Of a DNA stretch of 64,000 nucleotides, positions 4,380 through 38,133 are shown piece by piece. Position 1 is the first letter of the stretch. Every line of letters starts with the position of its first letter. The notes beneath the pieces were generated by a model. That model saw only the letters and a program-made list of their open reading frames with translations, was not told the origin of the DNA and searched no databases. The DNA comes from Quercus robur. Lineage: Eukaryota; Streptophyta; Magnoliopsida; Fagales; Fagaceae. A program made the translations under genes and the position numbers. The stretch covers positions 13,894,330-13,958,329 of the forward strand of contig NC_065538.1 of NCBI RefSeq assembly GCF_932294415.1, given 5' to 3'.

Positions 4380-4800
4380 TGGTAATTTGTGGAAAATGCT
4401 ATGGAAAAGCAAAATTCATGAAAGGTTGATGGTCTCACTTTAAAAGGGAGATGACTTTCAAGTCTAGATTTGTGATACTAGCTGCTGTTATTGTGATTTA
4501 GAATGCGAGACAGAGGTTCATTTGTTTCAGAAGTGTAGTGTAGTCAAGTTAGCATGGTTTGGTCCCAAGTGGAGATTGAATGGTAGTAGGCCTTTTTGTT
4601 GAATCAAGTGTTGGTTTACTGTCAAAAGGGAAAAATTTTAAAACTAATACTAAAGTTTTACAAACGACGATGAATATGATTGGTGCACTTCAACTACTAA
4701 AAAATAAACATTTGAATTACTTTTATGTGATTAATAACACATTAGATAATGGAAGATATTTGTGCATTAGCCACTAGCAAGTCTAATTTCTAGATCATTT
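4380..4800 (+). mobile_element. LINE 3' relic (zf-RVT-like)
   Basis: Interrupted translations read LWKMLWKSKIHERL and then ECETEVHLFQKC followed by AWFG. This is the Cys/His pattern of the zf-RVT region that follows reverse transcriptase in plant L1-type LINEs. Stops and frame breaks are present. Because it lies upstream of the large LINE's RT domain, it must be a separate remnant. Confidence 0.55.
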
Positions 4801-5384: not shown

Positions 5385-6893
5385 TATAGAAAGCAATTGT
5401 TAGCTTGGAAGAAAACTGAGGTGCAAGCTATACTAAATGCATTAACAAGAAAACAAGCTCATTTGCAAATATGTGAACAAGATCTGAATGATGAAACTAA
5501 ATGGGATGAAGCTAAAAAACTGCGTAGTGAGCTTAATATCTTGCTTGAGCAAGAAGAAGCCTATTGGCAGCAACGATCTAGGGTGAACTGGCTACAAAAT
5601 GGCAATCTAAATACGACGTTTTTTCACGCTTGTGCAAGCCAAAGAAAACGAACCAACCAAATATCCCAGTTGCGTAACAGAGAAGGAGATTTGGTTTCAA
5701 CTCCTGAGGGTTTGGAAAACATCACAACTGAGTACTTCCAATCTCTTTTCTCTTCATCCAATCCCATCTACATTGAGAAGGTAACTGAGCTTGTAGAAAG
5801 TGTGGTAACAGATGATATGAATTCACAGCTGTTAAAGCCTTTCATTGAGAATGAGGTTAAAATCACCCTCTTCCATATGCATCCCTTAAAAGCACCTGGC
5901 CTGATGGCGTGATGACCTTATTTTTCCAAAATTTCTTGCACATAGTGGGCCAGGATGTTACAAATGCGGTATTAGATTGTCTCCATTTTGGGAAGATGCT
6001 TCGAAGTATCAATTTCACTCACATAGTTCTTATTCCAAAAATGACTTCTCCATATTTTATGACGCAATTTCACCCCATCAATTTGTGCAACGTGGTCTAC
6101 AGGATTGTCTCGAAGGTGCTAGCAAACAGATTCAAGAATGTATTTCCTTATGTTATATCAGACAACCAAAGTGCTTCTATGCCAGGATGCTTGATCACAG
6201 ATAATGTGTTGTTAGCTTTTGAGGTTCTCCACTATATGAAGAATAAAAGGAGAGGTAAAATAGCTCACATGGCAATAAAATTAGATATGGGTAAGGCATT
6301 TGACTGAGTAGAGTGGGATTATTTGAAACAAATGATGTTGAAATTGAGATTTTTAGAAAGATGCGTGGCTCTCATCATGGAATGTATCTCATTGGTAACA
6401 TATTCTGTTATGTTGAATGGAGAGCCTAAGGGGTATATCAAGCCTAGCAAAGAGTTGAGACAAGATGACCCGCTATCACCTTATTTGTTCCTAATTTGTG
6501 CAAAAGGTCTTACGGTATTGATCAAGCAAGCTGAAAAATACTGGTGGACTGAGAGGTGTGGCCATTAGTAAGGGAGGACCCTATTTATCACATTTGTTGT
6601 TTGCAAGTGATAGTATATTATTCTGTGGAGCAAGAAGAGGGGATTGTTATGTTCTACAAGATCCTTCAAGTGTATGAAGAAGTATTAGGGCAAAAGCTTA
6701 ATTGTGACAAAATCTCATTGTTTTTCAGCAACAATGTAAATAGAGCATTGCTAAAGAAATCACTACAATCATGAGGACCAACATAGAAACAAGTATGGAG
6801 TGTAGACAAAAAAACTCGGATCCAACGCAAACTAGATGGCTGGAAACACAAGTATCTCTCACAAGCAAGAAAAGAAATTTTGATTAAAGCCAT
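5385..6893 (+). pseudogene. LINE reverse transcriptase, degenerate
   Basis: Translation begins RKQLLAWKKTEVQ and passes through SRVNWLQNGNLNTTFFHA, typical of the region preceding plant LINE RT. It continues through an APG(P)DG-type motif (frameshift near 5900), the segment from VYRIVSKVLANRF, DMGKAFD-stop-VEW (TGA at 6304), and DDPLSPYLF. The catalytic (Y/F)ADD box reads LLFASDS at about 6599-6619, so one of the two key aspartates is lost. A further frame break lies near 6540. The element cannot encode an active RT. The 6304 stop is what a CGA (Arg) to TGA transition would give. Confidence 0.85.
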
Positions 6894-9800
6894 TGTCGGG
6901 GGCCCTTTTTCATTGCACAGCCACATGTTGTCCGCTGGAGGGGTGACCTTGCTAGACCCAGATTTGTATGGGAAGTTGTGTCTAGAACTCGATATTGGGC
7001 CAAATAGTCCAATGGCTTTTGGCATATTTTTAGGCCTACAAAATGGGTGAAGCCCAAAGTCTAAGAATCATGATAATGGATGAATAACAACCACTGTAAG
7101 TTTCTTTAAAAAATTTTCTCCCCTCTCTCCGTGTGTGTGTGTTAATACTTAGTATTCTCAAAAAAAAAAAAATGATAATGGTTGAATAAATAAATAATAT
7201 GTGTTTGATATAATAGCTTTGATTAATAGTTGTAATAGTAGTTGAAATAAAGTAATATGTATTTAAAGGTTCATATATTCAATAATGTAAATTTAGAGAT
7301 ATGTAAATGTGGTGACTTATCTTTCTATGGTTTGCAACTCTAGCTGTATAGCATCAATGAGTTGATAGCATTCCGGCAAAATAACTCTATCAGTGGAGAG
7401 GCAATATGCCATGATTAGTTCAAGATTGAAGGGAAAAAATGGGTTCAACTGGAGGGAGAGAGAGTATGTCTAGCTATGTGTAGAGGCTGGTTAAGTTTGT
7501 CTCATTTATCATGCACTTAAATGAACTTCCCCTTGATAATGCTCTTTTAGTTATTGTGAAGTTATGAATAACATTGCCTTCCATGAAAATGGCTTTTGTA
7601 AGATAGGTTTGTGCCTTCCATGTGATGAGCTTTAGTATGAGTGTTTGATATCTCTTAAGGTGAATGGAGATGGTAAAAGCTATAGATGTTTTGTGGGATG
7701 TAGTATTTGTAATATGTATGGGTAAGAAGTATGGATACTTGGTGAGAGATGAGTTTGTAATATATATATGAGGAATATGAATGTATAATTTGTGAGAGAT
7801 GTAATTTGTAAGAAATATGAGAGATCTGTATGAGTATTTTGTGAGATATTTACTTTGTGAGATGTATGAGACATATGTAAGATGGTAAAGGAATTATGTT
7901 AGAGCTACTGGAAAGATTATAGTGATGGCTTGTGTTGCTTTCCAAGAGGAAAGATTTTCTAAGAGAAAAGTATGGAGATGTGTTTAGGTATTTGGAGATA
8001 TGAGCAACAAGATAGATGTATTTTCTGAATTTGGAGAGTGAGAGAATGAGTATAAGAAGAGTAATGGTGTTGTAGTGTGTTTAACAATGTTGTTGGGATT
8101 TTCTACTAGAGGATAGATAAAGGCTTATGAGTAGTGATATGAGGGGCATTTGTGAGCTAAGGGCTAAAGAGCTTAGTTTCTAATTTGGAAACTAAAAACT
8201 CAGAACCTCATTAAGAGCTTAAGAAGATAATTAGAGGAAGAGGGAAAATAGAGAAGTTTATGAGAGAATTGTTCTTCTCTATTGGTGTGCTTTGGTGTAT
8301 TGATGGGGGTTCTATTTATAGCTGAGCTTAAGGGGGTATTTAGAAAAGAATCTCAACCAAAATTTGTCCCAATCAACAATAAATTTTTAGTAAATCCATC
8401 CTAAGATTTAGCCGAAAATGATATGTTCAGCTTTAAGGGGTTTTTGCTGTTTTGGGTAATATCAGTTGGAGGAAAGACCAACAAAAAAGGAAAGGATTTT
8501 AGTAAGAAAAATATATTTTCTTTAGTTGGTTTTGATTTTTAACCAAATAAAGAAATTCTGTAATGCTAAGGCTGCTGGGTCAGCTGTCCCATTTGTTCTG
8601 AAAAAATTGTTACATTTATCTGAAAAAGCTGTCACAACCTGTTAGAAGACAATTATTGCTTGAGGTTGAAGTAGATGAGGTCAGCTGGATGATGTCAGGT
8701 TGTTGGAGAGAATATTCAGTATTTATTTCATGAATTTAACTGAAAATGGTAATATCTCTTTTAAGGATATTTTGCTATTTTGGGTATAGCATCTGGCTAC
8801 TGGGATTTGAGCATTAAATGGTTGGTGATGTCACTTTTAGCCAGGTGTCAAGTGATGAACACACTACTGGTGTTCTGCTTGAAAGGTTTCCTCTTTTGGG
8901 TATTTATATTTTTGGTCTAAAATTCTACTACAATGCATTTTTAGTAAGTAATAGAATGATTGATTGCTAATTAATGAAACTTTAGAGATTTAGTCAAGGT
9001 CTTATTGTGTTTTGACTTAATCTTGGTGAGCAAAAGGAGCATTTAATGCTCTGCTCTGGCAGCTGGCAGGGGAATATTTGGTCTGATTATGGCAGATGGT
9101 AGTTGGGTATTAAAAATTTCATGAATATTTTATATTTGAAAATTGAAGATAGCCAATCAAATTTAGCCATGTGTTTGAGTTGGATTTTAGCTGAAAGTAG
9201 TAATATGGTTTATGTGGAATAATATAATTAGGTTTCTAAATTTGTATGGCAACAGCTGGAAATAAAATGAATAGTTATTTTGTTAGCATTTAGATGATTG
9301 GAGTTTTTGAATATTTTTTATACGATGAGTATTAAGTTTTAGTCAAAGAGTAATGGGGAGTCTTATCATTTTAAGTGTTTATGTGATAAAAGAGACTTAT
9401 CATATGTTACTCGCTACACACTGACTTGTCAGAGTTCAAGAAGTTGGAGAAGACATGCCAAACAAGATGTTTTTTTTATCAACTTTAAACCGTTGAAATT
9501 TTACTAAACATACTTCTTGGCCTTCCAAACCATAACTCCCAAAGTTTCCCCAAATAGACTCATGGGCTTGGATCATGAGCTAAAGATGAGATGACGTACC
9601 TTAGGCTTTGTTGTCATTTTGTACATACGAGCTTTTGTTGGAAAAGCTGCTTTCCATTAATGTGATAGAGGTAATGCAGGTCATGAGTTTTGATTCATTG
9701 CTTGAGCCTATTTCGTATATTGATGTTGATGATGTTGTGGGTCGTGAGCCCAATTGATGAAGAGGAAATATGGACCGTAAATCTACCTCTTAAAGTGAAG

Positions 9801-16819: not shown

Positions 16820-17720
16820 AATTTCTGCATAATTATTTGTTGCTGCAAAAATTGTTACTATTTCTGCATAATTTCTGCATAAGTACTGTTACTTTTACTG
16901 CATAATTACTGTTAAAGTTACTGCATAATTGATGTTACTATTACTGCATAATTGATGTTACTGCATAGGTCTGGTATTGCATGGCATAAATATGTTTTTC
17001 TGCATAATTGTTATGCTAGGCAAGAGTTGTTTTTACTGCATAATTACTGTTAAAGTTACTGCATAATTACTATTACTTTTACTGTATAATTACTGTTAAA
17101 GTTACTGCATAATTAATATTACTGTTACTGCATAATGTTGAAGTTACTGCATAATTGATGTTACTGTTACTGCATAATTGATGTTACTGCATAGGTCTAG
17201 TATTGCATGGCATAAATATGTTTTTCTGCATAATTGTTATGCTAGGCAAGAGTTGTTTTTACTGCATAATTACTGTTAAAAGTTACTGCATAATTACTGT
17301 TACTTTACTGCATAATTACTGTTAAAGTTACTGCATAATTAATATTACTGTTACTGCATAATGTTGAAGTTACTGCATAATTGATGTTACTGTTACTGCA
17401 TAATTGATGTTACTGCATGGCATAAATATGTTTTTCTGCATAATTGTTATGCTAGGCAAGAGTTGTTTTTACTGCATAATTACTGTTAAAAGTTACTGCA
17501 TAATTACTGTTACTTTTACTGCATAATTATTGTTAAAGTTTTTGCATAATTACTGTTAAAATTATTGCATAATTATGTTACTGTTACTGCATAATTGATG
17601 TTACTGTTACTGCATAATTCATGTTACTGCATAGGTCTGGTATTGCATGGCATAAATATGTTTTTTTACATAATTGTTATGCTAGGCAAGAGTTGTTTTC
17701 ATATGTAAGTGTTGCTGTGA
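16820..17720 (+). repeat. Minisatellite with higher-order structure
   Basis: The basic unit is about 20-23 bp around TTACTGCATAATTACTGTTA. Groups of units form a longer repeat marked by GCATGGCATAAATATG and ATGCTAGGCAAGAGTTG, with markers at 16981, 17207, 17417 and 17647. The spacings of 226, 210 and 230 bp define the higher-order unit; the 210-bp one lacks a 16-bp piece. Only the MULE interior carries it in this window. It begins about 180 bp after the transposase stop. Confidence 0.85.
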
Positions 17721-21099: not shown

Positions 21100-21499
21100 G
21101 TGATTGCTTAATACCATTTGTTTTCTCGATCTTGGGCTTTTAGGCATTTGTTTCTCTTCATATATTTCAGCCTACGTAAAACTATACTTGTTTGTGGTTA
21201 TAGTCCATTTAGATTTATGGGGAATTTAGCCCAGCTGAATTGCACATTGCAGATCGTGATGTCCAACTTAAGGATCATGGATTTCAAACTTACTTGTGGC
21301 CTTGTGGGGTACCTCATCTTCATAAGGCCCATTTGTGATAGGTCCATTCTCTTTTTTCTCTCTTGGGCTTTCGGGCCTTTGTTTTTCTTCATATATATAT
21401 ATACATACATACATTTACTTTACCCATTTCGGCTTTCTTCACAAAAGCAATAGATTCAAACCAAAACCATTCCTTCTCTATTCTCCATTTCCCTCCAAA
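21100..21499 (+). promoter_or_regulatory. Promoter and 5'UTR of copy 2, shared with copy 3
   Basis: Blocks CTTGGGCTTT(T/C)(A/G)GGC, CTTCATATATATATATA, TTCACA(A/G)AAGCAAT(T)AGATTCAAACC and CCCTCCAAAATGAA occur in the same order before the copy 3 start (30150-30299). The AT stretch at 21390-21403 is the likely TATA region. The CTTGGGCTTT block is present twice here (near 21130 and 21360), so the promoter itself has an internal duplication. Confidence 0.5.
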
Positions 21500-24400
21500 A
21501 TGAACACCAAGAAACATAATGCACGTGCACCCCCATCACCCTCTCAACTTCCAAATACGATGTTGATGATCAATCACCCACCATCACAAAAGAAGTGTGT
21601 GACACTATGATTGAATTCTACGATGAGAACAACATAAATATTCTACGATGAGAAGCCTTGAATCTTGCCAAGGCCACCGTATCCCACCACCCAAACTCCG
21701 CGCTTGCTCTCGGCGCCCTTAGCTGCTGTCACTTAAAACTCGGGTTTATAGCCAGAAAAGACTACCATTCCCAATAAAAGAAAAAAGATTCTCTCTTTCC
21801 CCGTAAGCCTTGAATCTTGCCAAGGCCACAGTATTGGACGTGTTGTCTTTGCAGCGAGAGGTTTTTCGAAGTCAAATTGAATGCGGATCATATGAAGAGT
21901 GTGCATTTAGGGACTTTATCCGATGAGTTACGATCTGTAGAGGCAGAAATTGTATTAGATTCAGTCCATGACATCGGTGAATCAAGAAAATGGAGACCCG
22001 TGGACGTGGTTGCCGCTAAGAAAATGATGGAAGATTTGTCAAGAAACAAGTGTGAAGATGAAGGCCTAAATGAGTCTGAAATTTTCATGTTCCAGGAGGA
22101 CTGGCCTTATTGCAAAGATAGAGGGCGTGCCGACATGATTAATAGAATTCGAGCAAGGTTACACATGTTCTTGGAGCTTAGATGTTTTGTTTCAAGTTAT
22201 TTTTCGAGGTTGATGGACCTCATAATGGAAATTCTGAAGAAGCGAATCCCGGAACAGCTGCTTGAGGAACATTGGATGAACCAGACGCTGCTCTCCACGT
22301 GCTTTCTTGACATCCCGGAGCTTAATCTTGTGTTCGAGTTCTTGGATGATCTCGACAATACTTGTGGGTTACAGAGTCTCTGCTTCAGTCTTGCGAAGGA
22401 TGGGGTCAGGGGTGAGCCTTGTTTTGCTAATCATGAGAAGGTCGTATTCAATGAGGACTTCTCTTGTGTAGTTTTGGACAAGAGAATGTTGCGTGGAGAG
22501 CTTGTTGTGCCAAATGATGGAGCTGTTGTTATTACTTCTAGTGCTGATGAGGAAACCGAATTAAATGATGATGAATGTAAAGATGATATTGTGGATTGGT
22601 TATTGAAGGGGGTTACTAATATTGGGGAGCAATTGAAGCAGTGGACAAATTTGAGAGAAACCAGTAGAAGTCAAGGGAAAGAGTTTTTCAAAATCTATGA
22701 GGCTGAATTTCATCGGATGCAGAACATTTGTGAGAAAAAAAATACAGTATTTGAGAGACATTAAGGTATGGCAGAATTTGGAGAGTTTGTGTGTTGAAGA
22801 AGATAAGAGACGAGAAGAGATGTCAGGGTACAAATCATTGAGTTACGAGTATCTCTTGTTAGAGAGGCATAGGCACATTCAGAGGACAAATGATGATATT
22901 TTCGAGTTGGATATCATATGGAATATTTTGAGAAAACCTGTGGACAATGAAATAAAACTGGGGATCAAAAAGCAGATTGATGAAATAGTTGAAAAGGTAT
23001 GATATAGCCAAATTTAAGAACAGGGCAAATTTTCCAAGTTGTTTAATCTGAAATTCAAAGTCTCTCTTTGTAGTGTTTGTGTTTGATATTAAATATCTTT
23101 CTTGATGAATTGTTATATTCCAAAGGATGATTGAATTTCATAATGTTTGTTGTTGCAGCTTTACAAATTTGATGCTATAATCAGGACAACAACTACTGCT
23201 ATGCAGCAGACAGGGAAGAAAATTGATATGGTAACTGCTTATCACTACCGATCAATTATGGTGCCCCTGCTGAAGTCATTTATGCGGGTTTGTGTTGGAT
23301 TCTCTGTGCTGTTTTGCTGAAGGTTTTCATTTATCTACCTTCTTACCGGATATGATTTGATGTTTTTGGTGTAATATTCTCCATCAATAGGCACAAATGG
23401 AAGATCTGGCTAACAAGGATGCAGAAAAGAAGTCTAAGGCTGCAGAAGCAGCATTGTTATCAGAACTTGATCTTAATGACAAGAAAAACTCTGACAAAGG
23501 AGGAGGTAATGCAAGACAAGGACAGGAAAAATCCAAGGACGAAAAGAAGAAAAAAGATCACAGGAAGTCAGAAGAATTAAAAGTAGTTATTGTTCTGTTT
23601 CGTTTTTATGGTAATTGCAGTTGTCTAAAGCTAGCCAAGTATAAATTAATATGAATAAATGGAGAAAGGGCAGGAACTAAAAAGCATCTAAACATGTTAA
23701 ATATTAACATAATAGGCAGAAATTGGACTAATATACTTTAATTGGATGCATAAGACTTAAGATATGGAGGAGCTAGAGTTAAAAGTTGAAACAAAACTGG
23801 AAGATACTAAAAGAAATGGGTATTTCAGATGTAGAGTAGCCAAGTTAGGAAAATGTGGATCAAGTTTATTAGAATAGCAGTAATTTAGGATATGAACTGT
23901 GAAAGAGTCATAAATTGAGTAATCTAATGCATATGACATACGTTAGACATTGAACAAACACACATTGAAACAGATTATCACAGCAGCTAGATAACTGCAT
24001 AATTAAACAGACATTTAACAATATTTAATATTTTTTTCTTTAATAAGGAATGGAATAATTGGATGACTAATAAATTAAGAAATAGGAAAGCTCCTGAGAT
24101 TGGGTTTAATTAAATTTGATAAAACGCATACTTGTTTGAAATAGAAATAAAGAAAAAAAAGATATAGATCAGCAGGGAGTTCCCGGTTCCCACAAAACAA
24201 AGAGAATCGATTATACAAACTAACATCCCAAAAATATCAATTTTCTATTGTAGGCAACTGCATGTAGTGAGGAGAAGCAGGAAAATTTGGAGCAAATGTA
24301 AGTCCTTTTGTTTGTTATTAGTTTAACATTCTCATTGACTAAAACACATGTAAATTGTGTGAATATGTGGCCATATGTGCTCCCAATCTCTAGGCTGAAA

Positions 24401-24759
24401 TAAAGTTCATTGTGTTTTACTTCAGTTCCTTTCATGCTGCACATGGTGGAGATGATCCTCCTAATCCTGAGATTGTTGGTCCTGTAACCACTGATGAATT
24501 GGAGCAAGAGGAACGGAAACTTACACCTGAGGAGGAGAAAGAGCAAAGAATGCTTGAAGAGCATTTGGAGTATCAGAGGCAGATTGAGAATGAGGCCAAA
24601 CAAAAGCGCCTTGCTGAGCTAAATAAAGCTGGAAGCAGTGCAGGAAATATGGAAAAAATGTCCCTTAGACGCATCAACTTTGATGACTTTCACTGGAAAT
24701 ATTTTTATCAAGCTCAGGGTGTCAAATTGGATGAGAGAGTAGCACCCAAGAGAACTTGA
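21500..24759 (+). pseudogene. DUF627/C2H2/DUF629 family, tandem copy 2 (N-terminal deletion, frameshift)
   Basis: The start region aligns with copy 1 at its Pro/Ser-rich end. Then about 0.7 kb coding for most of DUF627 is missing, and the finger begins at once after a short duplicated stretch (AAGCCTTGAATCTTGCC at 21652 and again at 21806). From 21836 the finger (CCLCSERFF) and DUF629 are intact up to an A8 run at 22734-22741, where one extra A shifts the frame. Exon borders match the other copies: first exon ends 22996, then 23159-23287, 23391-23582, 24254-24297, 24426-24759. The tail after KQKRLAE extends further than copy 4's (to VAPKRT). If spliced, the downstream exons are undamaged, so the lesions look recent. 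It lies just after the LINE/MULE stack. Confidence 0.8.
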
Positions 24760-28722: not shown

Positions 28723-30149
28723 AGGCCTTAAAAACATGAGCTTCTATGTTTTTCTGTGTCTTTTGCATTGCTAACTGTTGCCATTAAAATTTTTTCCCCT
28801 AAAAAATCATTTCTTGCCTTCCATGTCACATCACATGTAGTTTTAAGGTGGGAGGCAGGGATTGGTCATAGAAGAGGAGAAGAATAAAAAAACACCTTAA
28901 TTTTCATCTGCTAAAAATAGCTGATTTTGAATTTGCTAGAGATCTTAATCTTTCATTCCACTTTGTATTGTTTTTTATATAGAAATGCCACATATTGCTT
29001 ATTAGATAGGAATTGATCTTAGTAAGGAAGACTAGTCTTGATTTCTTGGAGAACCAAACAAGATTGTCCATACTATGAGATTCTCTATGTTTTAGATATT
29101 GAGTTTGTTTTTTGTTTGAAGTTATTCCAGATTTGAACGTTAATTAATTGGGAGGAAATGGCCTTCATGCTTGGACCACTGGTAGATGCTCTTAACACAT
29201 GGTAGTTTGTCCCCTTGGATAATTGGTTTGCTTTAAATGAACAGGAAGTTAGGCTACTGTCTGATATATGCATGATAAGAATTCTTGGTAAATTAATTTG
29301 AATCTTGTCAATTGGATTCATTCCCTGTTTAATATTTATGCATAAAACTCTTGCTTCTCTCATTTTCTCTTACTTTTAATCTCCCAAAGCTCATTGCTAC
29401 AGAAGCATAACTCACCTTTATTACATATATAGGTGAAATCATACACAAATGCTATTGCTGATATACACATGTCCCTAGAATGTCTTTAGTGTTAAGGACT
29501 TTGGAACATAAAAATAGGTTTTATGTTAATGTTGTATGTGTTTTAACTAAGAGATGCACTACATCACAACATTTTTATAATATTTTCACAACAAATCATA
29601 AGTGGTTTGTTGTTATTAATTCAAATTTGAATCTAACACTAAAATTACTTTTTTACCCCAACAATAACAACAAGTAATAACCTGCCACTTAAAATTTGTT
29701 GTAAAAATATTGTGGACATATTATTTCTCTTTAACTTAACTTGAATGCTTGAACATAAAAAATTTGTGTGGTTTCATTTATTGGGCATTTAATATAATTA
29801 ATTATGAGTTGGTTTTTGATTAGTAGCTTTTATGTTTGCATTCATATGCTTATTTTTCATTTAATATAAAATTTGTGTTTTGGTATATATACTTTGTTAG
29901 AAAATAATCACATCATTTTACAAAGAATTTGAGATTAACATTTATAATTCTCATCTACTGTTTTTATTTTTCATTTAATAAAAAGCATAAATCATCAATT
30001 TTTTCGGCATGAGCCTACGACCGGTCCGTCCATAAAACCCAAAACTTTTATGGATTATTTAGCCCAAATAGAATGTGTATTCTCACCTAGTAAAGATATG
30101 GGTCATTAAGCGCAGGTACAATATGTGTACTTTCACCTAATAAAAATAT
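28723..30149. other. Intergenic with one MITE-like foldback
   Basis: AT-rich and no gene. At about 29559-29720 sequences near the two ends are inverted relatives of each other (ACAACAAAT...AAGTGG on the left against CCACTT...ATTTGTTGT on the right), as in a miniature inverted-repeat element. The borders are not sharp. Confidence 0.4.
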
Positions 30150-30197
30150 AGGTCAATTCCCTTTTTCCCTTTTTGGGCTTCCGGGCCTTTCTATCTC

Positions 30198-30233
<36 letters not shown>

Positions 30234-30296
30234 CAGTTCACCCATATCAGCTCCCTTCACAGAAGCAATTAGATTCAAACCACACTTCCCTCCAAA
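30150..30296 (+). promoter_or_regulatory. Promoter and 5'UTR of copy 3
   Basis: Carries the same ordered blocks as the copy 2 promoter: TTGGGCTTCCGGGCC, an (AT)n TATA region at 30199-30230, TTCACAGAAGCAATTAGATT, and CCCTCCAAAATGAA. It is intact in appearance, so the rearranged copy 3 downstream may still be transcribed. Confidence 0.5.
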
Positions 30297-30365
30297 ATGA
30301 AAACCAATACACCAACTTCCCCCTCTCAACCTCCACTGTCCAATAATCAAGAAACCCAAGAATTT

Positions 30366-30509
30366 GAGGACTCATTTGGTATATATGTTTAAGCCCATGT
30401 TTTCAATTTTTAAACAACATCATACATATTTTTACACACTTTTTCACCCACACATATTTCCAAAAAATACAAACAACGTTACTAGAACAATATTACCAAA
30501 CGGCCCCTA
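30366..30509. mobile_element. MITE-like element at the edge of the inverted duplication
   Basis: Begins GAGGACTCATTTGGTATA and ends TTACCAAACGGCCCCTAA. The ends are imperfect inverted repeats sharing the ATTTGGTA / TACCAAA core. The interior is AT-rich and non-coding. A similar foldback lies at 54409-54558. The target duplication is not clear. Confidence 0.45.
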
Positions 30510-30932
30510 AATCTTTAAAAACTACTTCTTTAGATCCATAGTCATTGTATGCCAGTAATTCTTGAATCGTGCCGTGTTATATGATGAGTGAGGTTTAAGA
30601 ATTTTGATTTTTTGCCTTGTTGTTATAGCTCTTTCTTGGATCTCTTCCTTTCTTTCTTGCCATTCTTGAATCTCATGCTTTACAGTTGCCAAATACATGG
30701 CATCTTGACTCTTCATAATTTTTCCTTTCAAAACCCGAAGTTCTTTCTTGGAGTCATCATTAATACCTATTGGGATCGATAGAGCGGAATTGCATGTTTC
30801 CAGCGCCTCACAGTAACAGGCTAATCTATAGAGGACTTTTGCATGGGTGATGAAGAAGGGGAGCGATGCAAGACAATTCATCATGGCAATGTTGGAGGAT
30901 TTCAGGGACTCTATTAAGTGTTCATGCATCAA
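30510..30932 (-). repeat. Left (antisense) arm of long inverted duplication
   Basis: On the minus strand it encodes AKVLYRLACYCEALETCN, GINDDSKKELRVLKGK, EWQERKEEIQERAITTR and FKNYWHTMTMDLKK, that is DUF627 coding sequence. It pairs with 31056-31451 at about 92% identity by eye, with one 27-nt gap and a few small indels. It is transcribed antisense from the copy 3 promoter. Confidence 0.9.
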
Positions 30933-31055
30933 GTCCTCAACAGTCATATAGATGGAGCACAGGGCATTGTGAGCAAGAGCAAAGCTAGAGTCATATAGAT
31001 GGAGCATAAGGCATTGTGAGCAAGAGCGAAGCTTGGGTTGTGGGATAGGGTGGCC
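30933..31055 (+). repeat. Hairpin spacer with a 47-bp tandem duplication
   Basis: TCATATAGATGGAGCA(C/T)A...GGCATTGTGAGCAAGAGC occurs twice head to tail (30945-30991 and 30992-31038). It forms the loop between the two arms. Confidence 0.8.
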
Positions 31056-31451
31056 TTGATGCATGAACACTTAATAGAGTCCCACGAATTGTCTTGGGTC
31101 GCTCCCCTTCTCCATCACCCATGCAAAAGTCCTCTATAGATTAGCTCGTTACAGTGAGGCGCTGGAAACCTGCAATTCTGCTCTATCGATCCCAACGGGT
31201 ATTAATGATGACTCCAAGAAAAAACTTTGGGTTCTAAAAGGCAAAATTATGAAGAGACAAGATGTCATGTATTTGACAACTATAAAGCATGAGATTAAGA
31301 ACGGCAAGAAAGAAAGGAAGAGGTCCAAGAAAGAGCTATAACAAGGAAAAAAATCAAAATTCTTAAACCTCACTCATCATACAACACGGTGCGATTCAAG
31401 AATTACTGGCATACAATGACTATGGATCTAAAGAAGCAGTTTTTGAAGATT
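31056..31451 (+). repeat. Right (sense) arm of long inverted duplication
   Basis: Sense orientation of the same DUF627 segment. It continues without a break into the rest of copy 3 (QFLKIQMAYLKCHFEND), so this arm is the original and the left arm the added copy. It carries small indels that break the frame. Confidence 0.9.
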
Positions 31452-31806
31452 CAAATGGCGTATCTTAAATGCCATTTTGAGAATGACAGATCAGCAACAC
31501 ATGCCCTAGAGGGCTTAAAGGAGATTAAGATCTAGAAGGTGTGGCGTTGCTGGTGAAATTTCCATTCGATGTTTTACAGCGAAAATTTGATGATGCAGCA
31601 CATCCTCAAAATTTGTGAATAATCTGAGAAGTGGAGACCCGTGGACGTGGCTGCGGCGGTGAAAATAATGGAAGATTTGTCAAGAAACGAACAAGGAGAT
31701 CAAGGTCAATATATCTCAAAAGTTTTCATGAACCAAGCCGAATGGCCTTATTGCAATGATAGCAAGTGTGAAGAGATAATTAATAAAATTCAAGAAAAAT
31801 TACGTG

Positions 31807-31960
31807 TGTTAACGTGTATTAGGGTATGTGGGCTTTAGGCCCACCTTGTTTACTTGTACAACACACTTACTTGCACTACACACTCTGCCTCCTATATAAA
31901 GGCACATATGTATATTCTATTACTTGAGAAATACAATACAATCATTCAGTATCTCTAACA
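31807..31960 (+). repeat. Copia 5' LTR
   Basis: 154 bp, TGTTAACG...TCTAACA, with a TATA box (CTATATAAAGG) at about 31893. Confidence 0.95.
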
Positions 31961-32658
31961 TGGTATCAGAGCCACTGCTCTGACCTTTTCTTAGCAGTCT
32001 TGTCTTCATTAGTGAGACTTCCTTTCTTTTACTAACGCTTCCGCCATCACAACTGCCACCGCAACCTCTCGCCGTTGAACCTCCGACGTCATCCAGCTGT
32101 CGTCCTTGGGTTTCGGACCTGCAGCCGCCGTCGTTAAGGAGTTTCACACTGCACAGACCACTGCTCTTTGCATCACCGCTACGAATATTGCTTCGATTTC
32201 ATTTTTGAAGGTACCACTGAGATCGTCCTGCGCCGATCTACACACTCGTGGAAGCCTCACCGCCAACGGAGACCGCACGTGCCCCCACGCGTCGTTCAAA
32301 GCTGTTGTGATGCTGATCACGCACCACCACGCGCCGTAGTTTTCTTGCACGCACGTCCTATCTACGCCACGCGCCGCCACGCGCTCCCACGCACCGGAAC
32401 CTGATTTGCTGACGTCATCACCTCTGCCACGTCAGCCCTAGCTGCGTCAGCATCCATTGATCTTTTGACGTCATCGCCACGTCATCTTTTGACGTCATCT
32501 GCCTGACCGTTGACCGACCGTTGACTGTTGACTAGCAGTTGACCGTTGACTTTGATTGTTGACTTTTTCGGGGTTGATTTTTGCAGTCCAGGTGCTCCTT
32601 ACCCAGTTTTTCGCGTAGATTTCATTTTGCAGTCCATTTCTGCATATTTTGCTTCTAA

Positions 32659-35600
32659 ATGAAAACTAAGGACAGGTCTTCTTCTTGTTGCAATAATCGT
32701 CGCCGACAATCCAGCAAACATTTTTGCAATTTTTGCAAACGTTTTGGCCACAATATTGAGACTTGCTATCATCGCAACAAATTAGCTGTGTCAATTTCCA
32801 CTGCTACTGTTGCTAACACTAAGAGTGTCCAACCAATGGCTCCCATCTCTGCACAGTCTAAGTCTTCAGGACGCACTTTCACCATGTCCACAGATGACCT
32901 TAAAAATATCATCACCAATGTCATTTGTATGGTTGGTAATGCATCTTATTCCTCTTCTCTCTCAGCTTTATCTGGTATGTCTCCTTCCTCTTGGCTTATG
33001 GATTCTGCTTGTTGCAATCACATGACTCCTCACTCGTCCTTATTTTCTAAACTTAAACCTGCACCACATCCTCTTAATATTCACACAGCAAATGGTTCCA
33101 CTATGTTTGGTCATAATATAGGTTCCGTTTCGACCTCCAATCTCTCGGTTCCTGGTGTCTTTAATGTTCCTGACCTTTCTTACAATTTATTTTCTGTGGG
33201 ACAATTAGCTGAGTTAGGTTATCGCATTATCTTTGATTATTCTGGGTGTATTGTGCAGGATCCAAGGACGGGACAGGAGCTTGGGACCGGTCCTAGAGTT
33301 GGGCGTATGTTTCCCGTGGACAACCTTCGTCTTCCATTTGTTGCTCCTGTTTCTATTGTTACAGCTACTGCAGTTTCTTCTACTCCTTCCCTTGCACTTT
33401 GGCATGCTCGACTTGGTCATGCATCTTCCTCTCGAGTACAACAATTGGCTTCTAGAGGTTTGTTAGGTTCAGTGTCTACAGAAAATTTTGATTGTGTTTC
33501 ATGTTAGTTAGGAAAACAACCAGTTTTGCCCTTCAATACTAGTGAATCAATATCACTGATATCTTTGACCTTATTCATTCTGATGTTTGGGGGCCTTCCT
33601 CTGTCTTTAGTATTGGTGGATCTGGATATTTTGTTGTCTTTTTTTATGATTACTCTCGCTATAGCTGGATTTTTCATATGAAACATCGTTCTGAGTTATT
33701 GCAAGTATATTCTAATTTTGCAAAAATGGTTGAAACTCAATTTTCCAAACGTATCAAAATTTTTCGATCTGATAATGCTCTTGAGTATACTCAATATGCT
33801 TTCCAAGCTGTTTTGCATTCCTATGGCACTGTTCATCAACTAACTTGTCCAGGTACCTCTCAGCAAAATGGTAGAGCCGAACGAAAATTTCGTCATATTC
33901 TTGACACTGTTCGTGCTCTTCTTCTCTCTGCCAAAGTTCCCGCTCCTTTTTGGGGTGAAGCTGCCCTTCATGCTGTTCATGCTATTAATCGCATTCCAAG
34001 TCCTATTATTCAAAATCAAACTCCATATGAGCGCCTTTTTAGGTCACCTCCAGACTATCACCACCTTCGCTCCTTCGGTTTTGCTTGTTTCGTTCTTCTT
34101 CAGCCACATGAGCATAACAAACTTGAGCCTCGGTCAAGACTTTGTTGTTTTCTTGGCTACGGCGAAACTCAAAAGGGGTATCGGTGTTATGATCCTATCT
34201 CTCATCGTCTTCGTATCTCCCGCAATGTTGTCTTTTGGGAACATCGCTCCTTTGTCGAGCTCTCTCACTTCCGTGCCTCCATGTCTTCCTCCTCTGTTTT
34301 AGATCTTTTTCCAGATGAGGCACATATTCCTTCTGTAACTACTCCTGATCCTCCTGTAGTTGCTCCTGATCCTCCTATAGACTTTTCTTTCCAACCACCA
34401 GATACCTTTGATCCCTTTCCTAGTTCACCTTTTAATGAACAGGTGGAAGATGCACAGGTTGAAGACGAGCTACCCAACCCTGAGCTTGGGTCCCCTGCTC
34501 CTGCTCCGCCTGAAGATCTTGCACAAGACATTCCACCTTGTCACTCAACTCGGGTAAGATCCATTCCTACACATTTACTTGATTATCATTGTTACACTGC
34601 TCTTGCTACACTACATGAGCCTCACACCTATCGTGAGGCTTCCACTGACCCTTTGTGGTAGATTGCAATGAAAGAGGAACTTGATGCATTATCTAAAAAT
34701 CATACTTGGGATTTGGTGACTCTCCCCCCTGGGAAATCTGTGGTTGGTTGTAAGTGGATCTACAAGATTAAGACTCGCTCTGATGGGTCCATTGAGCGCT
34801 ACAAAGCTCGTCTTGTTGTAAAAGGTTTTACACAGGAGTATGAGATTGATTATGAAGAGACCTTTGCTCTGGTTGCTCGTATCTCATCTGTTCGAGCTTT
34901 CTTAGCTGTTGCTGCTGCCAGAAAATGGGACCTTTTTCAGATGGATGTCAAAAATGCATTCCTTAATGGGGATTTAAGTGAAGAAGTTTATATGCAACCT
35001 CTTCCTGGTCTCTCTGTTGAATCAAATAAGGTTTGTTACCTTCGGCGTGCTCTTTATGGCCTTAAACAAACTCCACGAGTTTGGTTTGCCAAATTCAGCT
35101 CTACCATCTCTCGCTTAGGTTACATGGCTAGTCATTATGATTCTGCCTTATTTCTTCGTCGCACTGACAAAGGCACTATTTTACTTCTCCTGTATGTGGA
35201 TGATATGATCATAACTGGTGATGACCTTAGTGGCATTCAAGAACTCAAGGGTTTTCTCAGTCAGCAGTTTGAGATGAAAGATCTTGGACATCTCAGCTAC
35301 TTCTCGGGTCTTGAAATCACTCATTCTACAGATGGACTTTATATTACTCAAGCCAAGTATGCCTCTAAACTCTTGTCTCGAGCTGGACTCACTGATAGCA
35401 AGACTGTTGATACTCCAGTTGAACTTAATGCGCATCTGACTCCGTCAGGGGGGAAACCATTGTCTAATCACTCTCTTTACAGACGCTTGGTTGGCAGTCT
35501 AGTTTATCTCACTGTCACTCGTCCAGACATTTCCTATGCTGTTCACCAGGTGAGTCAGTATCTGTCTGCTCCACGATCAACTCACTATGCTGCTGTTCTG

Positions 35601-36143
35601 CGCATACTTCGATACCTAAAGGGCACTCTCTTCCATGGTCTTTTCTACTCTGCTCAGTCTCCTCTTGTTCTTCGTGCATTTTCTGATGCTGATTAGGCAG
35701 GAGATCCCACTGATCGCAAGTCCACCACTGGCTATTGCTTTCTTCTTAGTTCTTCTCTGATTTCTTAGCGAAGTAAGAAACAAACTCATGTGGCCCACTC
35801 CAGTACTAAAGCAGAATATCGTGCTCTTGCTGATACCACATCTGAGCTCCTTTGGCTACGATGGCTTCTCAAAGACTTAGGTGTATCCACATCCTCTGCT
35901 ACTCCTCTTTATTGTAACAACCAGAGTGCCATTCATATTGCTCACAATGATGTCTTCCATGAACGGACTAAACATATTGAGATTGATTGTCATTTTATTC
36001 ATTATCATCTTGTCCATGGTGCTCTCAAGCTGATCTCAGTTTCTTCTAAAGATCAACTTGCAGATATCTTCACCAAGTCACATCTTAAGGGACGTCTTCG
36101 CACTTTGGTTGACAACCTCAAGTTGGTCTCACATCCACCTTGA
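32659..36143 (+). pseudogene. Copia gag-pol remnant (stops, one frameshift, gag core missing)
   Basis: Starts near the gag end with a CCHC knuckle (CNFCKRFGHNIETC); the usual gag core upstream is absent. Protease-like LMDSACCNHMT follows, then GAG-pre-integrase (ALWHARLGHASSSRV). Integrase shows HSDVWGP, RSDNALEY and NGRAERK. RT holds the intact YVDD box (LLLYVDDMIITGDD). RNase H reads AEYRALADTTSELLW and YCNNQSAIHIA, where CDNQSA is usual. Stops: 33505, 34659, 35694, 35766 (all TAG). One base is lost near 33547, shifting the frame. Each stop sits where Gln (CAG) or Trp (TGG) is expected, so all fit single C-to-T or G-to-A changes. Not autonomous. Confidence 0.9.
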
Positions 36144-36156
36144 GTTTGAGGGGGGC

Positions 36157-36310
36157 TATTAACGTGTATTAGGATATGTGGGTTTTAGGCCCACCTTGTT
36201 TACTTGTACAGTACACTTACTTGTACTGCACACTCTGCCTCCTATATAAAGGCACCTATGTATATTCTATTACTTAAGAAATACAATACAATCATTCAGT
36301 ATTTCTAACA
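36157..36310 (+). repeat. Copia 3' LTR
   Basis: 154 bp, starting TATTAACG (5' LTR has TGTTAACG) and ending TTCTAACA. It is followed by the second ACGTG. Confidence 0.95.
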
Positions 36311-38133
36311 ACGTGAATTCTTGAATATTGGATGGTTTGATTCAAGTCAGATTTCAGTGTTCATGGATATGATGAAGAAGCAAATCCCGAAACCACTGCT
36401 TAAGCAACATAGGACGAATTGCACTCTACTCTGGGTATGCTTTCTTGACATCTCAGGCCTTAATCGTGTGTTCATGTTCTTGGATGATCTCTACAATATT
36501 TGTGGGTTACAAAGTCTCTGCAAGAGTCATGTGAAGGATGAGGTTAGAGGTGACCCGTGTGTCTCTAATATTGAGAAGATTACTTTTAATGAGGACTTCT
36601 CTTGGGTAGCTTTCGACAATAGAATGTTGCGTGGAGAGCTTTTTGGGCCAAATGATGGATTTATTTTTAGGTTCAGTGCTGATGATGAAATCGAATTAAA
36701 TGATGATGAATGTAAAGATGCTATTGTTGATTGGTTATTGAGTGGAGATACAAGTATTGAAGAGGAATTAAAACAGTATAAATCTTTTGCGTTATATAGT
36801 AAAATTCAAGCCAAGGAGCTTTTCAATATCTATAAGGCTGAATTTCAGCGGATGCAGAACATTCGTGCAATAAAATCCAAGTATTTGAAAGAGTTAGAGC
36901 ATTGGAAATATCTGGAGTATCAATGGAAACAAATAGAAGAATTTCCGTATCTAGACAGCAGAGCCTCACCATTTAAGTCTTTCATGTTAGAAAAGCAGAA
37001 AGAGATAAATGCTGATACTCTCGAACCAGATATGATATTCGACATTTTGAGTGAAGAACAAGAGCAGGACAATGAAATAATATTGGTGATCAGGAATCAG
37101 ATTGATGAGATGACTGAAAAGGTATGTTACAGACAAAGTTATGAACATGTGAAATTTTCCAAGTTGTTTGATGTGAAATTCAATGTGTTGTGTGAGATAT
37201 TATATATGTTGGCTTTAATTGCATGGTGTCCTTTGCATACATTGTCAACACAATCTGCTTATTCTTGTACCATGCTTACATAGTATAGACTAGGTGGCTC
37301 GAAATTTTGAGCCTAGCAAATAGATGCAGATTGTTGTTTAACAAGAAAAATAGAGAGAGTGGTGCGGCAATTGCAGAGAAGAAAAATTTCTTCTCTTAGT
37401 ATTTGTGAGATGTTGTATTGGGGTTTTGGGTTTAGTGATGAACTTTTATATTCCGTATAATGATTGAATCTCAGTATGTTTGTTGCAGATTTACAAATTT
37501 GATTGTATAATCAGGACGACTATTATTGCCATGAAGCAGACGATGAAGAAAATTGCTATGGTAACTGTTTATGACTACCGATCAATTATGGTACCCCTAC
37601 TAAAGTCATACGTGCGGATTAGTGTAGGATTCTCCACGCTGTTTTGTTCAAGGTTTCTATTTATTAGTTACCTTCTTTCCCATCTGTGATCTGATATTTT
37701 CGGATTTTATAGGCACGCCTGGAGGATCACATAAATGCTGAAAAGAAGTCTAAAAAGGTTACGGTTCTTTACTGTGGCCACAACTTGATAGATTTTTATC
37801 AAGAAACAAAGCGCCTTGCTGAGCTAACCGGTACAAATTTCCTAAGGAATGAGGCAGAGGATGTGCCTTTCAGTGGCTACTACTTTGGCACTGTTAACTG
37901 GATTGATTTTTATCGAGCTCAGCATGTCAGATGGGATGAGGAATCAAGTGAACCTGAGCAACAGAAGGGCCTCAAAGCTCCTGAATCTGATTAGCACAGA
38001 TCTACCCGATTCTACAGGAGGAGCCTGCACTTTTTTTGAAAATAAAAAAATTAAAGTATTTTGTTTTTAATCCATCTAATCTAATCTAATTTAATACTAT
38101 ATATAAAAGTAGAAGTTTTTTTTCTATCATTAA

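Follow-up and report, generated by a model that had tools for sequence, protein, structure and literature searches.

An inverted duplication inside a decaying DUF627/DUF629 gene copy of Quercus robur and the long hairpin it could form

The window analysed here, a stretch of 64 kb from one contig of the Quercus robur assembly, carries a tandem set of DUF627/DUF629 genes, copies 1-4. Copy 1 lies at the left window edge, copy 2 at about 21391-24736 with most of its N-terminal part absent, and copy 4 starts at about 40538. Copy 3, which starts at 30297, contains a long inverted repeat, and its parts are arranged as follows (window positions).

30148 to 30296, + strand: 5' flank and leader of copy 3, 79% identical to that of copy 2 over 135 nt (blastn), partly TA-rich
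30297 to 30361, + strand: start of the coding sequence of copy 3, still present (blastn and empty-site comparison)
30362 to 30367, - strand: outermost 6 nt of the left arm, severed by a MITE and ending in the target duplication TGA (empty-site comparison)
30368 to 30507, no strand assigned: high-copy MITE (140 bp) between TGA and TAA, inserted after the inversion
30510 to 30936, - strand: left arm, an inverted copy of DUF627/linker coding sequence (blastn and alignment)
30625 to 30687, + strand: conserved core of the left arm; antisense 21-mers from it score a penalty of 4 or less in 5-10 of 10 intact paralogues
30937 to 31051, - strand: spacer (the future loop), more coding sequence of the inverted copy
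31052 to 31456, + strand: right arm, the copy native to the gene and in its orientation; 23, 1 and 3 nt present in the left arm are absent from it
31457 to 31806, + strand: continuation of the copy 3 exon, carrying stops and frameshifts
31807 to 36310, + strand: Copia-type LTR element in the copy 3 exon, with LTRs 94% alike and a 5-bp target duplication (by eye)
36311 to 37760, + strand: 3' part of copy 3, the DUF629 region; where compared with paralogues, it has 70-78% nucleotide identity to them

The assembly searched comprises 785.7 Mb in 42 contigs. Genome-wide, 35 DUF629 stretches were listed, 31 of them on the window's own contig, where 21 of the 31 are clustered at 12.66-12.67, 13.69-13.94 and 14.67-14.84 Mb. 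The beginning of copy 2 (21391-22160) is without most of the DUF627-linker segment and retains the 5' flank and the DUF629 part. Outside the gene family, 16822-17699 is occupied by tandem direct repeats with a period of about 230, the longer pairs of which are 82-89% alike. The reading frame that begins at the original ATG of copy 3 runs into a stop after 31 codons, within the MITE. Copy 3 is also mosaic-looking (31052-37760): its identity to three paralogues is 41-65% up to about 31650 and then mostly 70-89%, with a few lower bins; judged from these identities, its 3' part looks as if homogenised with neighbouring copies.

When 30201-31900 was compared with the window by blastn, 30510-30936 aligned in opposite orientation with 31451-31052 (E 4e-152), which gives arms of 427 and 400 nt around a spacer of 115 nt. 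The first-pass annotation had read arms of 423 and 396 nt around 123 nt, about 92% identical by eye, and the repeat it described is real; the identity is right with gaps excluded, since 371 of the 400 aligned bases match in the global alignment of the arms (92.75%, or 86.9% with gaps counted). The 29 mismatches comprise 22 transitions and 7 transversions, and one of them, situated at the inner junction, may not have arisen later. Three gaps (23, 1 and 3 nt) are all absences from the right arm. Five runs of at least 21 nt pair perfectly, the longest being 45 nt, and 65 21-mers are fully paired. The folding calculation that had been proposed at the first pass gives -656.5 kcal/mol for the + strand RNA, compared with -241.9 on average (sd 6.9) over 20 shuffles (z -60). 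This value confirms the repeat and not a function, because any long palindrome yields such a value.

Silencing RNAs are known to arise from long hairpins. The foldback in copy 3 extends over about 940 nt and is paired along both arms, so that a long near-perfect repeat that one transcript could span, as expected of an endogenous hairpin siRNA locus, is present. As copy 3 coding sequence stands inverted behind the gene's retained 5' end, one transcript would form a long, near-perfect hairpin, and the single-hairpin architecture suggested earlier is borne out as being of the type that can be diced. In a screen for inverted repeats by blastn (E of 1e-10 or less, at least 60 nt) of the window and 11 paralogue loci, that of copy 3 was the sole one above 200 nt, and the three weaker ones listed measured 182, 72 and 137 nt. 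Two short inverted repeats near other paralogues, 6555-6685 with 7349-7484 of locus L050 (74%) and 4392-4463 with 4590-4660 of locus L044 (83%), are much weaker than that of copy 3.

In alignment with the intact copies, the right arm has the orientation and position native to the gene and continues into its remaining part. In the left arm the frame stays open for 139 codons, up to one TAG, and the right arm has lost its frame through frame-breaking gaps. The arms had been attributed to DUF627 coding sequence, which holds by homology (tblastn to DUF627/DUF629 paralogues, 7e-22) but not by domain assignment, as Pfam does not find DUF627 in the left-arm protein at E values up to 10; the alignment maps the arm to the later portion of DUF627 plus the linker that leads to DUF629. 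A Pfam match of the left-arm protein to MIT (E 0.15) was taken as chance. The spacer contains a 47-bp tandem duplication (30942-31035), the units being 91% alike and their length not a multiple of three.

In the tree the arms are sisters with a support of 100/100, their tips measuring 0.037 and 0.044 and the stem common to both 0.57 changes per site, while their position within the family is unsure because the tree program warns of long branches meeting. Neutral simulation of the 0.57 stem starting from the present left arm left the sequence stop-free in 0.6% of 1000 runs, and together with the open left-arm frame this suggests that the segment probably remained coding up to roughly the time of the duplication. 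A DNA search of the assembly showed no closer relative of the arms among the matches listed (at least 24), the best-scoring of these outside the locus being 85% identical over 75 nt, and a search with the left-arm protein showed none among at least 14 matches, the listed ones being 4 within the hairpin and 10 in paralogues at 35-47% identity. As sequence comparison demonstrates, the arms stem from one inverted duplication and have a common origin. That two paralogue fragments were instead placed head to head independently is highly improbable: the size of the family and its partial copies, such as copy 2, speak for it, but the arms are only about 7% apart while the left arm differs by 41-49% from nine paralogues, and both the sister relationship and the lack of a closer relative among the matches listed speak against separate sources.

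The stretch between the promoter and the left arm was considered as a product of the rearrangement, and this was ruled out: the genome search identifies it as a common repeat, and by the empty-site comparison it arrived after the inversion. A genome search with this MITE gave 2687 first-look candidates, 40 of which were scored, and among six other copies that were aligned, four have TAA or TTA on both sides (by eye), flanks that resemble those of PIF/Harbinger-type elements. When the MITE was removed by script and the empty site compared with the right arm, the identity between the arms extended by 6 bases (ATTTGA), and the MITE is therefore younger than the inversion. The arms had been described as lying just after a promoter-like region: the 5' flank and start of the gene are indeed kept, but the high-copy MITE intervenes between them and all but 6 nt of the left arm.

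Fold-back artefacts also produce inverted repeats, and a chimeric or fold-back read could in principle have created the arrangement. We regard this as extremely unlikely, because the arms are about 7% apart with three indels and a MITE was later inserted in one of them. Arms made by such an artefact would be near-identical, and here they carry 29 substitutions as well as the indels, while the MITE and the 47-bp duplication occur in one copy only.

The divergence between the arms was also considered for signs of selection on the pairing. In 130 aligned codons there are 10 synonymous and 17 nonsynonymous changes, and the NG86 estimates (dN 0.058, dS 0.147) looked like constraint. Selection keeping the pairing was nevertheless set aside as an explanation, as neutral simulation with the observed transition bias gives a mean of 7.6 synonymous changes (sd 2.3) and does not reject neutrality (P = 0.20). 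Of the 29 differences, 7 were placed on the left arm, including one at the junction, and 6 on the right arm, while 16 were placed on neither. By this low-power test, the divergence of the arms fits neutral drift.

The match between the hairpin and the living members of the family is weak. The left arm has 51-59% nucleotide identity to nine paralogues, with dS of 1.3-2.8, as compared with 70-78% and dS of 0.39-0.53 for the DUF629 part of copy 3 against the same nine; therefore the arms derive from sequence far from the living copies. No exact 21-mer match of either arm was present in 21 family sequences, and the left arm with the spacer has a 21-mer with one mismatch in 9 of the 21. As a yardstick we used 10 paralogues with long open frames and counted the 21-mers in common at two mismatches or fewer. 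Pairs of these intact paralogues have 17-752 such 21-mers in common, and the left arm with the spacer has 0-27 in common with them (the right arm 0-3), ranges that overlap only in that copy 4 also matches poorly. Extended near-identity to intact paralogues, as expected of a silencer of the soybean CHS type, was thus not found, and the identity of 51-59% to the nine paralogues would make copy 3 a poor silencer of its family.

The earlier case for silencing in trans had singled out 30639-30659, which pairs with copy 1 (587-607) with a single mismatch. The match is correct, but it is no special link to copy 1: apart from its own site, where it is exact, this 21-mer recurs eight times with a single mismatch, namely in the right arm and in seven paralogues, of which copy 1 is one. 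It is found in so many paralogues because it lies within a conserved part of the family. The plant target penalty scheme counts 1 for a mismatch and 0.5 for a G-U pair, doubled at positions 2-13. With this scheme and a cut-off of 4 or less, guides were scored against the 10 paralogues and against a background of 35 kb of non-family sequence on both strands. Guides that obey plant target rules in the paralogues are present by this scoring, as 57 of the 406 left-arm guides pass in at least one of the 10 paralogues and 0 of the 406 in the background. Those reaching at least five paralogues number 23, all at 30625-30687 except one at 30525-30545, and several of the 30625-30687 guides pass in 8-10 of the 10. 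All 10 are reached by 30662-30682, 30663-30683 and 30639-30659, and several core guides begin with U. Segments of the same length from four intact paralogues have more passing guides than the left arm in 36/36 comparisons at a cut-off of 4 or less, while at 2.5 or less one comparison was lower and two were equal.

Silencing of the family in trans is thus a claim of which one part stands. The passing guides and the clean background are in its favour, and against it are the distance of the arms from the intact copies and their 0-27 common 21-mers as opposed to at least 17 between intact paralogues. From the guide results, it rests on core stretches and is weaker than the silencing by an intact copy would be; as far as target prediction can tell, silencing of the family through the core, chiefly 30625-30687, is possible.

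The question is then whether copy 3 works as a hairpin siRNA locus today. Under this reading the hairpin would be transcribed from the retained 5' region and cut by DCL4/DCL2, and much of the family would be repressed in trans by guides that come chiefly from 30625-30687, in a manner like that of soybean CHS. The retained 5' flank and start of copy 3, the long near-perfect stem, the three guides that pass in all 10 paralogues with an empty background, and the documented precedents discussed below are in line with it. The better performance of the intact-paralogue segments and the lack of an exact 21-mer in the 21 family sequences are not, and the flanking MITE and Copia element could silence the promoter or end transcription. 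On balance we judge such activity unlikely.

Inverted repeats that yield siRNAs against paralogues have been documented in soybean, including the I locus (PMC13051633, PMC3534067, PMC3804491; the cited parts of these reports). At the I locus, GmIRCHS, which consists of chalcone synthase sequence, is, like copy 3, an inverted repeat of a pseudogene copy within a gene family, and the reports, in the portions cited, connect it with RNA silencing of the paralogues (PMC13051633, PMC3534067). There both siRNAs and a phenotype have been shown, whereas copy 3 is known from its sequence and its left arm has only 51-59% identity to the nine paralogues. The soybean aquaporin NIP6-1 repeat on Gm14, of 621 bp with about 1,000 nt between the arms, is likewise a coding inverted repeat of similar size that resembles a paralogue elsewhere; in the cited part of the report, 40 unique siRNAs match that paralogue with 0 mismatches (PMC3534067), a situation unlike that of copy 3 with its 21 family sequences and no exact 21-mer. 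Maize Mu killer is, like copy 3, a partial inverted gene duplication for which a long hairpin has been proposed, but its target is a transposase gene, and the cited section also describes short antisense transcripts in the silencing plants and proposes another model (PMC3440606). Judged by sequence organisation, the copy 3 hairpin has the architecture of known siRNA repeats, without the extended similarity to targets. Among the papers listed as naming DUF627 or DUF629, none mentions hairpins in its title or the opening of its abstract.

The first-pass annotation had also seen in the hairpin a candidate proto-MIRNA locus. On such a reading, the inverted duplication would be in the course of reduction to a single excised duplex within the conserved core. 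MIRNA foldbacks should by guideline be under about 300 nt; that of copy 3, at about 940 nt, is well beyond this, is paired throughout both arms, and nothing in it marks a single excised site. Rfam 15 at gathering scores gave 0 matches in the window, which says little about a young gene, for which a match to a known family is not required. The core sites common to many paralogues favour the idea, and some young MIRNA genes have been proposed to originate when a target gene undergoes inverted duplication, a model in which gene sequence is inverted and duplicated as in copy 3 (PMC3237417, in the part cited). Unlike young MIRNA genes, copy 3 has no defined miRNA and only weak extended similarity to possible targets. 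With the foldback paired along both arms and arm changes that fit neutrality (P = 0.20), the proto-MIRNA proposal is weakened, and we consider it very unlikely. A bolder variant is that the hairpin is expressed and regulates the whole family, being built from a paralogue lineage that is otherwise lost. After far-reaching drift of the arms it would act on the living copies through core stretches only, chiefly one of about 60 nt, and would be part-narrowed from a many-site siRNA source towards a near single-site one, midway between a hairpin siRNA locus and a MIRNA gene; this appears improbable.

The best reading of copy 3 is that of a decaying pseudogene and a latent hairpin-siRNA locus of a known kind. 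We propose that it was formerly a diverged but coding member of the tandem DUF627/DUF629 family, and that about 500 bp of its coding sequence was copied, inverted, into its own N-terminal part, perhaps by a replication template switch or a similar repair event. The two copies would have been joined at a microhomology of about 5 bases, breaking the gene. At the inner junction about 5 bases, CTTGA, are common to the inverted segment and the right arm (by eye, in comparison with paralogues and the left arm), which fits a microhomology-mediated template switch. Later the arms diverged by about 7%, the reading frame of the right arm was lost, the MITE entered the outer end of the left arm, and the Copia element split the gene downstream. 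The outcome is a pseudogene whose + strand RNA, if made, would fold into a duplex of about 400 bp, which Dicer-like enzymes would cut into siRNAs of 21-24 nt. Such siRNAs would match their own locus perfectly and could reach the intact paralogues via short conserved stretches, chiefly one of about 60 nt.

It seems likely that the hairpin is a by-product under no selection. Several observations count against this: the synonymous count is slightly above the neutral mean (10 vs 7.6), NG86 dN is below dS, the 5' flank and gene start have been retained, and the 65 fully paired 21-mers come together with core guides passing in up to 10/10 paralogues and none in the background.

Overall, copy 3 contains a real inverted duplication of single origin inside a decaying gene, while its proposed roles as a proto-MIRNA gene and in trans-silencing are possible, at a lower grade than they had first been given. 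The locus also advises caution, as the striking fold follows from the palindrome alone and the 21-mer with one mismatch from paralogy alone. If copy 3 is silent, which is more likely, it is a clear case of an inverted duplication inside a tandem family. If it is active, the locus would exemplify a hairpin that has come to match its family in short core stretches only, and it would be useful for understanding how hairpin siRNA loci become MIRNA genes or die.
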